Of a DNA stretch of 41,482 nt, positions 2,385 to 5,004 are shown in pieces. Positions within the stretch are counted from its first letter, which is position 1. Each line of letters opens with the position of its first letter. The stretch comes from Candidatus Berkelbacteria bacterium CG10_big_fil_rev_8_21_14_0_10_43_13 (lineage in GTDB: Bacteria; Patescibacteriota; UBA1384; XYA2-FULL-43-10; 1-14-0-10-43-13): contig PEZW01000014.1 in assembly GCA_002773985.1 (NCBI GenBank), forward strand, positions 6,477 through 47,958, read 5' to 3'. Under the pieces are notes generated by a model that saw only the letters and a list, made by a program, of their open reading frames with translations, searched no databases and was not told the DNA's origin. Position numbers and translations under genes: made by a program.

Positions 2385-4097
2385 TTATTTAAACTGCTTT
2401 AGGAGTTCGGTAATTTCAACCTGACCCTTGTCACCATCTCCATATCTGCGGACGGCAACTTTATTGGCCTCGATCTCTTTGTCGCCAACTATCAGCATAT
2501 ATGGAATTTTTTGCATCTCAGCGTCACGAATTTTGCGACCGACGGATTCCGTCCTGCTGTCTAGCTCGACACGAACTCCAGCATCAAACAATTCTTTTTT
2601 AATCTTCTCAGCATATTCCAGATGTTTGTCAGAAATCGGCAAAATAATCGCTTGCACCGGCGCCATCCAGACCGGAAATGCTCCAGCAAAATGTTCGATG
2701 ATGATCCCGATAAATCGCTCGACTGATCCAAGTATGACACGGTGTAACATCACTGGTCGTTTTTTCAAACCATCTTCAGCGATGTATTCGAGATCAAACC
2801 GTTCGGGCATCTGAAAATCAAGCTGGATGGTCCCAAGCTGCCAAGTACGACCGATCGCATCCTCAATGTGAAAATCAATTTTTGGTCCATAAAAAGCACC
2901 ATCGCCAGGGTTTAGTTTGTATTCAATGTTTTTCGATTTCATCGCGCTGATTAGTGCCGCTTCGGCTTTTTGCCACATCTCATCTGACCCCATCGAATTA
3001 TCCGGCCGAGTTGATAATTCGAGATGATATTTCAAGCCAAGCTTCTTGTACATCCGATCGATCAGAGCCATCAAATCGACAACTTCGTTCTGAACCTGAT
3101 CCTCAGTACAGAAAATATGAGCATCGTCTTGATGAAATTGTCTCACTCTCAGTAAGCCGTGCAAGACGCCGGCTAGTTCATGGCGATGGACCAAACCAAT
3201 TTCTCCCATCCGTATTGGCAAATCTCGATAAGAATGAAGATTTGTTTTGTAAATCAAAATTCCGCCAGGGCAATTCATCGGCTTGATTGCAAAATCACGA
3301 TCGTCAATTTTAGTAAAATACATATTTTCTTTGTAGTGGTCCCAGTGACCGGAATTTTTCCAGAGAACTCGGTCGAGAATAATAGGTGTTTTTACTTCGA
3401 CATAGCCGGCAGTCCTGTGTTCACTGCGCCACCATGTTATAATCGCATTCCAAAGCTCTATCCCCTTCGGGTGCCAGAAAGGAAAACCCGGACCTTCTTC
3501 GTGAAAAGAAAACAAATCAAGCTCTTTGCCAAGTTTTCGATGATCTCTTTTTTCCGCCTCGATTATGAGTTTCTCATACTTTTCTAATTCTTCTTCATTT
3601 TCAAATGCCAAACCGTAAATTCGTTGCAACATTGCGTTTTTTTCATCAGCACGCCAGTACGCGCCGGCAATTTTATCCAACTTCCAACCGATGTTTTTTA
3701 AATTTCCGGTTGATTCAACATGTGGTCCTTTGCAGAGGTCAGCAAAAAAGTCGATAGTAAAAAAGCCAACTTTTTCGTCCGGTAAGTCATCAATTAGTTC
3801 AACTTTGTATTTTTGACCGAAATCAGCAAAATGTATCAACGCATCATCACGATTTTTTTCCGAGCGCACGATGGGAAAGTTGCGACTGATAATCTCCCGC
3901 ATTATTTTTTCAATTTTTGGCAGATCTTCTGGACTCAATGATCTTGATAAATCAAAATCATAATAAAATCCATTTTCAATTGCCGGACCGATCGCCAACT
4001 TTGCCTCCGGAAATAATTTCAAAACAGCCATCGCCATAACGTGGCTGAGCGAGTGCCTCGCCATCATAATATCAATATTTTCTTTTTCTTTGTTCAT
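2385..4097 (-). CDS. thrS: Threonyl-tRNA synthetase lacking the TGS domain
   Basis: Charges tRNA-Thr. The 570-residue protein starts essentially at the editing domain: HSLSH is the HxxxH motif and DLCKGPH supplies the other editing cysteine and histidine. The class II core follows, with motif 2 around LLRVRQFHQDDAH and motif 3 in RVILGSVERFIG. The expected zinc ligands are the cysteine in MNCPGG, the histidine in FHQDDAH and the histidine in VMLHRV. The C-terminus is the anticodon-binding domain (PVWMAPVQAIILPI onward). The N-terminal TGS domain of about 60 residues found in most bacterial ThrRS is absent, and there is no room for it because the upstream 235 bases are repeats. A GNAT gene and a T-box-like leader lie upstream on the same strand. 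Confidence 0.96.
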   Translation of the reverse strand: MNKEKENIDIMMARHSLSHVMAMAVLKLFPEAKLAIGPAIENGFYYDFDLSRSLSPEDLPKIEKIMREIISRNFPIVRSEKNRDDALIHFADFGQKYKVELIDDLPDEKVGFFTIDFFADLCKGPHVESTGNLKNIGWKLDKIAGAYWRADEKNAMLQRIYGLAFENEEELEKYEKLIIEAEKRDHRKLGKELDLFSFHEEGPGFPFWHPKGIELWNAIITWWRSEHRTAGYVEVKTPIILDRVLWKNSGHWDHYKENMYFTKIDDRDFAIKPMNCPGGILIYKTNLHSYRDLPIRMGEIGLVHRHELAGVLHGLLRVRQFHQDDAHIFCTEDQVQNEVVDLMALIDRMYKKLGLKYHLELSTRPDNSMGSDEMWQKAEAALISAMKSKNIEYKLNPGDGAFYGPKIDFHIEDAIGRTWQLGTIQLDFQMPERFDLEYIAEDGLKKRPVMLHRVILGSVERFIGIIIEHFAGAFPVWMAPVQAIILPISDKHLEYAEKIKKELFDAGVRVELDSRTESVGRKIRDAEMQKIPYMLIVGDKEIEANKVAVRRYGDGDKGQVEITELLKQFK

Positions 4098-4130
4098 TTT
4101 TTCCTTTCAGTTATAAAATTTTAATTTATT

Positions 4131-4248
4131 ACAGAACTTACGCACCGTAGCGCAAGCTTTAGCTTGTTAGAGCTGGATTAAACAATTTAGTTGTGTGCAA
4201 TCCCAGCACGCTGAAGCGTGATCTACGAGGATTTTGTGTAAGTCCTGT
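4131..4248. repeat. MITE-like inverted-repeat element
   Basis: A 118-bp element bounded by near-perfect 11-base inverted ends (ACAGAACTTAC on the left, GTAAGTCCTGT on the right; 10 of 11 pair). Inside are nested inverted segments CGTAG/CTACG and two small hairpins, GCAAGCTTTAGCTTG and CACGCTGAAGCGTG. No reading frame. It separates thrS from the GNAT gene. Confidence 0.7.
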
Positions 4249-4279
4249 TTATTGCTTATTACTTATTACTCTTCTCTTG

Positions 4280-4323
4280 TTTTTATCCTTTTGACTAACG
4301 ATCGTTAGTCAAAAGGATAAAAA
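4280..4323. repeat. 44-bp perfect palindrome with AACGATCGTT core
   Basis: Two perfect 22-base arms meet at CGATCG, with TTTTTATCC at one end and GGATAAAAA at the other. Neither strand has a T-run after the stem, so it is not a standard intrinsic terminator. A second 44-bp perfect palindrome with the matching core AACGGCCGTT is at 12273-12316. Confidence 0.85.
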
Positions 4324-4332
4324 ATTTATTTA

Positions 4333-4803
4333 TTATAATGTTTTTTTGAACACTACTTGATGTTTATATTTTTTGTATCCCATTTTTTCATAAAACTTAT
4401 GAGAATCTGTCCGAACAACATTGGAATTGACTTTCATTGTTTTCGAACCTTTTTGCTTAGCCCATTTCTCTGCCGTTTGCATAAGTGTTCGTCCCAATCC
4501 GATACCTCTGGCGTTTTTGTCAATGACAAGCCCACCAAGTCTAGCTTGAACACCAGATAGCATTTCATAATGTGCCGTCACGTTGACAAAACCCAGCACC
4601 TTAAATCCTGTGTCCTCGACAACAAAAATCTCCTGATCTTTGACTTTGGAAATATTTTGGATGTGTTTTTTGGCCTCAGCTTGACTTAGTTCGTGATCAA
4701 GCTGAATCGAAAGATCAGCTATTATTTTTGCGTCAGACTGCTCTGCTTCGCGGACAATTAATTCCGCTTTTCTCGTTTCGATTGTAATTTTTTTGGTATC
4801 CAT
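4333..4803 (-). CDS. GNAT-family N-acetyltransferase
   Basis: A 156-residue acetyltransferase of the GNAT fold. The coenzyme A pyrophosphate loop is seen in VIDKNARGIGLGRTLMQTAEKWA (R/Q-x-x-G-x-G/A pattern), followed by the C-terminal half with NVVRTDSHKFYEKMGYKKYKH typical of the family. The frame is open further upstream, but those residues are encoded by the T-box-like leader and its terminator stem, so the ATG at 4803 is chosen; it is preceded by a weak TTGGAG Shine-Dalgarno. The substrate is unknown. It is the first gene after a leader whose features suggest tRNA-Thr sensing. Confidence 0.85.
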   Translation of the reverse strand: MDTKKITIETRKAELIVREAEQSDAKIIADLSIQLDHELSQAEAKKHIQNISKVKDQEIFVVEDTGFKVLGFVNVTAHYEMLSGVQARLGGLVIDKNARGIGLGRTLMQTAEKWAKQKGSKTMKVNSNVVRTDSHKFYEKMGYKKYKHQVVFKKTL

Positions 4804-4831: not shown

Positions 4832-4956
4832 AAAAAAGACCCAAAGGCTCGAGAAGCCGAAGGATCGGCTGGTTCCATCTCGATTGGGTCTTAATCTACC
4901 GATTCGCTTCGGTCTGCGCCAAGCCTCCCGGGGTGGTAGCCCGATCAACAGCTTGG
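4832..4956 (-). promoter_or_regulatory. Candidate miniature T-box riboswitch (threonine-type)
   Basis: Read on the minus strand there are three consecutive structures. First, a hairpin with helix CCAAGCU/GGCUUGG, a three-base GUU bulge, tandem G-A and A-G pairs, helix CGGG/CCCG and a seven-base loop CUACCAC: a textbook kink-turn capped by a loop holding ACC, a threonine codon, followed by A. Second, hairpin ACCGA-AGCGAA-UCGGU, in the place of stem III. Third, UCGAGA/UCUCGA and AGCCGA/UCGGCU helices flanking a seven-base 5' bulge UGGAACC, the T-box consensus UGGNACC that pairs with the tRNA acceptor end. An outer helix AAGACCCAA/UUGGGUCUU followed by U6 forms a terminator. The parts match T-box logic; the apical specifier loop does not match the usual internal loop, hence the moderate confidence. 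Confidence 0.55.
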
Positions 4957-4974
4957 ATCATTATCTTATTAACT

Positions 4975-5004
4975 ACTATACCACAAATAATCAAATTAAG
5001 TAAA
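4975..5004 (-). promoter_or_regulatory. Putative promoter of the T-box-like leader
   Basis: On the minus strand TTTACT and TATAGT are separated by 18 bases, placing the transcript start about 15 bases before the kink-turn hairpin. It sits just after the dCMP deaminase stop. Confidence 0.45.

Follow-up and report, generated by a model that had tools for sequence, protein, structure and literature searches.

Closest described T-box systems

T-boxes of the glyQS type control transcription and are composed of a Stem I, a Stem III and an antiterminator, without Stem II or Stem IIA/B. Their Stem I is long, comprises an interdigitated T-loop module (IDTM) and displays the specifier in an internal loop, and terminator and antiterminator exchange strands; in conventional T-boxes these two structures share a strand. 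The thrS T-boxes of Bacillota have a long Stem I as well. They often occur in tandem, with two or three elements (PMC12452182). In T-boxes with a short Stem I the specifier is located in the apical loop (PMC7583486), and for the ultrashort T-box of ileS a Stem II S-turn and Stem IIA/B were reported to be essential for high-affinity tRNA binding (PMC10651847).

Here a leader from a CPR bacterium, Candidatus Berkelbacteria, is compared with these systems. It lies in a stretch of 41,482 nucleotides (the window) of an 838-kb genome, upstream of a GNAT acetyltransferase gene and of thrS. Very probably it is a much reduced T-box with an ultrashort Stem I, through which the charging of tRNA-Thr(GGU) would control transcription of GNAT and thrS. 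The predicted fold, its covariation, the agreement of codon, UGGN bulge and gene, and the enclosing terminator are demonstrated on the level of sequence; that the leader binds tRNA, senses its charging and switches in the proposed way is inferred, and there are no binding or expression data.

Common to the glyQS-type T-box and the window element are Stem I, Stem III and antiterminator, control of transcription and the lack of Stem II and IIA/B, but the long Stem I, the internal-loop specifier and the strand exchange of glyQS have no counterpart in the window. The T-boxes described by RF00230 share with it the UGGNACC bulge, Stem III and an aminoacyl-tRNA synthetase as target. The gene and the regulatory logic are the same as in the thrS T-boxes of Bacillota, whereas the window has a single element of about 110 nt. 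With the ultrashort class II ileS T-box of Actinobacteria it has in common a kink-turned short Stem I, the apical specifier, the missing IDTM and the UGGN bulge (PMC7583486, PMC10651847). However, the class II element possesses a Stem II S-turn and a IIA/B pseudoknot and acts on translation; the window element is without these, uses ACC for threonine and ends in an intrinsic terminator. According to the initial annotation, known T-boxes display the specifier in an internal loop. This does not hold for short Stem I T-boxes, in which it is apical (PMC7583486), so the main claim of novelty made there falls.

Architecture of the leader

The leader is encoded on the minus strand at 4832-4956, and the structured region before the GNAT gene extends from about 4968 to 4804. 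Read 5' to 3' on the minus strand, it begins with the kink-turn hairpin CCAAGCU-GUU-GA-UCGGG-[CUACCAC]-CCCGG-GA-GGCUUGG. The 5' arm CCAAGCU of the outer (C) helix of Stem I (4950-4956) shows compensatory changes in 7/7 pairs and is followed by the bulge GUU with GA (4945-4949), which was identified by sequence and alignment. Fold and covariation support both the inner helix UCGGG/CCCGG with the apical loop CUACCAC (4928-4944, loop at 4933-4939) and the kink-turn GA (4927-4926) with the 3' arm GGCUUGG (together 4919-4927). The kink-turn is of the standard type, with a 3-nt bulge and tandem G.A/A.G pairs beneath a helix of 5 bp and a 7-nt loop containing ACC and A. The specifier ACC (4937-4935) and A4934, i.e. 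4934-4937, are complementary to U33 G34 G35 U36 of tRNA-Thr(GGU).

After the spacer CGCAG follows a Stem III-like hairpin, ACCGA[AGCGAA]UCGGU (4898-4913), with a conserved AGNNAA loop and compensatory changes in 5/5 pairs, and then AGAUU. The 3' half of the leader reads AAGACCCAA-UCGAGA-[UGGAACC]-AGCCGA-UCCU-UCGGCU-UCUCGA-GCCU-UUGGGUCUUUUUU. Its first segment, AAGACCCAA (4884-4892), is the 5' arm of the terminator; it is situated upstream of the antiterminator and forms 9 bp with 4836-4844. The antiterminator is built from helix A1 (5' arm UCGAGA at 4878-4883, 3' arm UCUCGA at 4849-4854) and the hairpin of helix A2 (AGCCGA..UCGGCU, 4855-4870), and all three parts are supported by fold and covariation. 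Between the 5' arms lies the T-box bulge UGGAACC (4871-4877), whose UGGA is complementary to U73-C-C-A of tRNA-Thr. Following GCCU, the 3' arm of the terminator, UUGGGUCUU, runs into the U-tract and continues with UUUU (4832-4844; alignment and comparison of arm pairings). A Stem III and a bulged two-helix antiterminator, both supported by covariation, are thus present. The minimum free energy of the leader is −59.5 kcal/mol (z −2.8), lower than that of all 200 dinucleotide shuffles. The initial annotation had already described the kink-turn, the 7-nt loop with ACC and A, the Stem III-like hairpin, the UGGAACC bulge and the terminator, and all are present where it had placed them.

A likely sigma-70 promoter, TTTACT-18-TATAGT with TG before the −10 element, is found at 4975-5004 on the minus strand and ends about 18 nt before the kink-turn helix. 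Within the window taken alone, the number of promoter matches (3) is about that expected by chance (2.8). A promoter-like site is present in all eight leaders of the window type (L040-L047, see below), ending 6-18 nt before the compared stretch of Stem I, and one of them, L043 of G002, carries the perfect consensus TTGACA-16-TATAAT. At this distance a longer Stem I could probably not be accommodated.

The first gene after the leader encodes the GNAT acetyltransferase (4333-4803, minus strand; PF00583, 9e-15). The inferred main target is thrS, the gene of threonyl-tRNA synthetase (2385-4097, minus strand; TIGR00418, 732 bits with a cut-off of 384). That thrS lies downstream on the same strand, as the initial annotation stated, is correct, but the context needs amendment: in G008, a relative of the same order, GNAT and thrS are immediate neighbours, whereas the window has a repeat element and a palindrome between them (about 4116-4323). 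Control of thrS in this genome therefore depends on readthrough, which is inferred only. The repeat element has copies elsewhere in the genome (87% and 82%, on C9 and C20), and the perfect 44-nt palindrome (4280-4323) also recurs in the genome.

Several features of other T-boxes are missing. The window leader does not possess the long Stem I of class I with its interdigitated T-loops; its Stem I is one short hairpin. Stem II, S-turn and IIA/B are absent as well, and there is no room for IIA/B; in the thrS leaders of the window type Stem III is the next element after Stem I. None of the 35 leaders of the thrS cluster, which includes some of proS, shows the S-turn pattern of Stem II, compared with at least 18 of 38 ileS/valS leaders, the pattern being strict. 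A possible reason for this difference from the ultrashort ileS T-box, which we can only infer, is that ACC/GGU contains two G-C pairs and AUC/GAU one. By a similar inference, a contribution in place of Stem II may come from the AGNNAA loop conserved in Stem III. Sequestration of the Shine-Dalgarno sequence, by which class II elements act on translation, is not met, since GGAG is located downstream of the U-tract and outside the T-box fold.

Distribution and covariation

Of 55 genomes in the class, seven are matched at E ≤ 1.3e-14 by a covariance model trained on the leaders of the window and of G008 (R1); its own two training sequences are among the seven. In the phylum R1 matches 16 of 379 genomes at E ≤ 0.01, including G329. 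The six leaders of the window type that were not used for training (n = 8 in total) have E values of 2e-18 to 3e-8 and are located without exception upstream of thrS. The leader directly precedes thrS in four class relatives (G004, G002, G003, G039) and in G329, and one or two genes lie in between in G008, G005 and the window. A second model, R2, which like R1 was trained on ACC leaders only, matches 45 of the 379 genomes. A covariance search with homologous leaders, proposed in the initial annotation as a check, thus yielded further leaders before thrS, at E 3e-8 or better.

In the alignment of the window type, 21 of 27 pairs show compensatory changes and 94.9% of the cells are paired, compared with 69% in shuffles and 52% or less in slid controls. 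Among 28 thrS leaders 25 of 27 pairs covary, with 93.8% paired as against 63% in shuffles. These alignments were fitted to the model and are hence biased toward it, yet the shuffle and slide controls remain far below; a structurally poor MAFFT alignment of the leaders was set aside in favour of the covariance-model alignments. The bulge UGGAACC is invariant among the leaders of the window type, and the ACC loop and the kink-turn are also conserved. The initial annotation would have abandoned its proposal if loop and bulge had not been conserved in relatives; both are kept, as is the kink-turn, and the helices covary.

A pattern scan of the whole genome collection gave nine matches, six of them in CPR relatives. 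Three (L115, L118, L119) have unrelated contexts, were taken as chance and were rejected as leaders. Those carriers of the leader that bear a name are Patescibacteria, which agrees with a placement in the CPR. Two close relatives (G007, G009) lack the leader. The thrS leader of G006 (L121/L086) is a damaged copy, which keeps antiterminator and terminator without a recognisable Stem I, and the thrS reading frame of this genome is broken by an insert.

The element could also be the decayed, non-functional remnant of a T-box in a reduced genome, with a hairpin now serving only as terminator or attenuator. In favour of this, thrS of the window's genome is less firmly linked to the leader because of the insert that separates it from GNAT, and G006 illustrates how an antiterminator can outlast a recognisable Stem I. 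However, the window copy is intact at every conserved position and scores 118 bits with R2, a model whose training set includes it, and the compensatory changes show selection in the relatives. We consider decay very unlikely.

Agreement of specifier, bulge, gene and tRNA

When a strict hairpin rule was applied, the apical codon agreed with the downstream gene in 22 of 27 thrS leaders (ACC), in 21 of 21 ileS leaders (AUC) and in eight of ten valS leaders (GUC). Gene identities behind this tally were checked on about 20 representatives, and proS leaders (L059, L073, L149, L172, L177, L181, L184) were excluded from it. Five thrS leaders were not called by the rule: by eye, L042, L047, L052 and L095 have ACC, and L099 is without a clear codon. 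Typical apical loops are CUACCAA, CUAUCAA and CUGUCA. The ileS and valS leaders were returned by R1 and R2 in spite of the ACC-only training, and RF00230 returns more of them. Nine ileS leaders with an apical AUC were found by RF00230 only (L143, L163, L170, L176, L193, L195, L198, L200, L204); the Stem I architecture is thus connected with T-boxes without recourse to R1 and R2.

The bulge changes in the same manner. Most thrS leaders have UGGA and nearly all ileS and valS leaders UGGU; among the tRNAs encoded in the window's genome and in G324, tRNA-Thr has U73, and tRNA-Ile and tRNA-Val have A73. The last base of UGGN therefore matches the discriminator, UGGA facing U73 (Thr) and UGGU facing A73 (Ile/Val). 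In the window leader, too, the specifier corresponds to the regulated gene and is followed by a purine (ACC and A), and this leader belongs with those of an aminoacyl-tRNA synthetase gene, thrS. Since the anticodon loop of tRNA-Thr(GGU) is AUGGUAA, UACCA is able to pair over five bases. As codon and UGGN follow the gene and the discriminator base, the element is to be regarded as a T-box. The proposal of a much reduced T-box in a CPR bacterium is hence borne out by the fold, by covariation and by a codon and UGGN bulge that shift with the downstream synthetase.

Kink-turns are common protein-binding sites (PMC5061560), and the leader of the window precedes a GNAT gene. It might thus be a conserved leader that serves through its kink-turn as the target of a protein (an L7Ae-like one, or the acetyltransferase or synthetase itself) and resembles T-boxes only incidentally. 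This would leave unexplained why ACC, AUC and GUC go with thrS, ileS and valS and UGGA and UGGU with U73 and A73, and also why UGGAACC is invariant in the window type, so that such an origin appears extremely improbable.

In one CPR family (f41) the thrS T-boxes carry ACGGAA(A/U)C at the position of UGGAACC (L051, L052, L054, L055, L097, L133, L135). The first base of this bulge cannot pair with A76; the two tRNA-Thr recovered from G324 keep the normal U73-CCA end. CPR valS leaders with an apical GUC (L107, L110, L123, L127, L129; L109, L130, L137) have loops of CUGUCA or of 10 nt ending in GUCA, and several possess a Stem II with an S-turn-like motif.

The enclosing terminator

A U-tract follows the hairpin in 8/8 leaders of the window type, i.e. 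an intrinsic terminator is located downstream of the antiterminator. The stem beside the U-tract (AAGAYCC/GGRUCUU and variants, 6-9 bp) encloses the bulged helix in all eight and shows compensatory changes (ACCC/GGGU, AUCC/GGAU, UCACG/CGUGG). A terminator that encloses an antiterminator-like helix is a point that the initial annotation had missed. It is claimed only for the eight leaders checked by hand, because elsewhere automatic calls of a nested or conventional arrangement are unreliable and sometimes misplace the U-tract (L048, L049). No conserved alternative pairing of either arm of the enclosing stem was found in these eight leaders; mutual exclusion of terminator and antiterminator by strand exchange, a class I trait, is not met.

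A T-box with a conventional switch, in which an alternative terminator would use the 3' strand of the antiterminator and the enclosing stem would be secondary, nevertheless has to be considered. The arrangement in which the 3' arm of the antiterminator is the 5' arm of the terminator does exist in thrS mini T-boxes of the phylum (L048, L049, L093, L094, L098, L055). In the eight leaders of the window type, however, the arm next to the U-tract has a single conserved partner, the enclosing 5' arm, with which it forms 6-9 bp, whereas the alternatives for strand exchange comprise 5-7 bp, consist partly of G-U or U-tract pairings and are not conserved in position. We therefore hold a conventional switch to be unlikely. 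An exchange between the 3' arm of Stem I and the 5' arm of the terminator, suggested by the CCAA that Stem I and terminator 5' arms have in common in the window, is not conserved and was rejected. Since the terminator lies around the antiterminator and the two do not compete for a strand, the usual switch logic is not applicable, and the window type must switch otherwise.

Visibility to Rfam

The RF00230 search suggested in the initial annotation did not recover the window element, with no match in its genome even at E ≤ 10, and all Rfam families searched against the leader and its relatives gave nothing relevant. Related ileS and valS leaders, which have a Stem I of this kind, are matched by RF00230. 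At E ≤ 0.01 it has matches in 125 of 361 genomes of the phylum, 13 of them above its cut-off; as a class, T-boxes are therefore found widely in the phylum. Some CPR genomes contain apparently full-length T-boxes found with RF00230 (L058-L077), many others are sub-threshold, and up to six matches occur per genome. In the literature searched, which left out most subscription journals, no paper on T-boxes in CPR bacteria was found. The missing RF00230 match, the missing Stem II and IIA/B, the nested terminator and the members of the order without the leader were counted against the T-box reading.

Proposed mechanism and significance

In the proposed mechanism the apical loop of the kink-turned Stem I would pair with the anticodon loop in a loop-loop contact of at most five pairs (UACCA with UGGUA). 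When threonine is absent, UGGA of the bulge would pair with the free UCCA 3' end of the tRNA. Threonyl-tRNA would be unable to make this second contact, and RNA polymerase would stop at the U-tract hairpin. For the switching step we prefer a model in which the bound tRNA, with Stem III stacked under A1, sterically blocks the closing of the outer terminator stem (AAGAYCC/GGRUCUU); this stem would be kept open while the polymerase passes, in place of a strand exchange. The leader may thus represent a T-box subclass in which the terminator hairpin itself is the site of tRNA action: uncharged tRNA would dock in the bulge that this hairpin contains and, by sterics or stacking, keep the outer stem open, the tRNA being held only by the loop-loop contact of a 7-nt hairpin and by its 3' end, without Stem II, IIA/B or an elbow-binding module. 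The chances that this holds or fails seem to us about even.

An apical specifier by itself is not new, as it is known from translational ileS T-boxes with an ultrashort Stem I. What appears to be new is the combination of an ultrashort Stem I with transcription termination, its use for thrS and valS, a terminator placed around the antiterminator and, in the thrS form, the lack of Stem II and IIA/B. The element would be an exception to two current rules, one generally requiring a long Stem I with an elbow-binding module in transcriptional T-boxes, the other making an ultrashort Stem I dependent on Stem II and a IIA/B pseudoknot. With about 110 nt to the end of the antiterminator, the element would be, if the reading is true, among the smallest tRNA-sensing riboswitches and a compact system for the study of tRNA sensing. 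The family extends across CPR bacteria, serves the synthetases for Thr, Ile and Val and is largely missed by standard models, and it offers a rare view into the gene regulation of host-dependent, mostly uncultivated bacteria.
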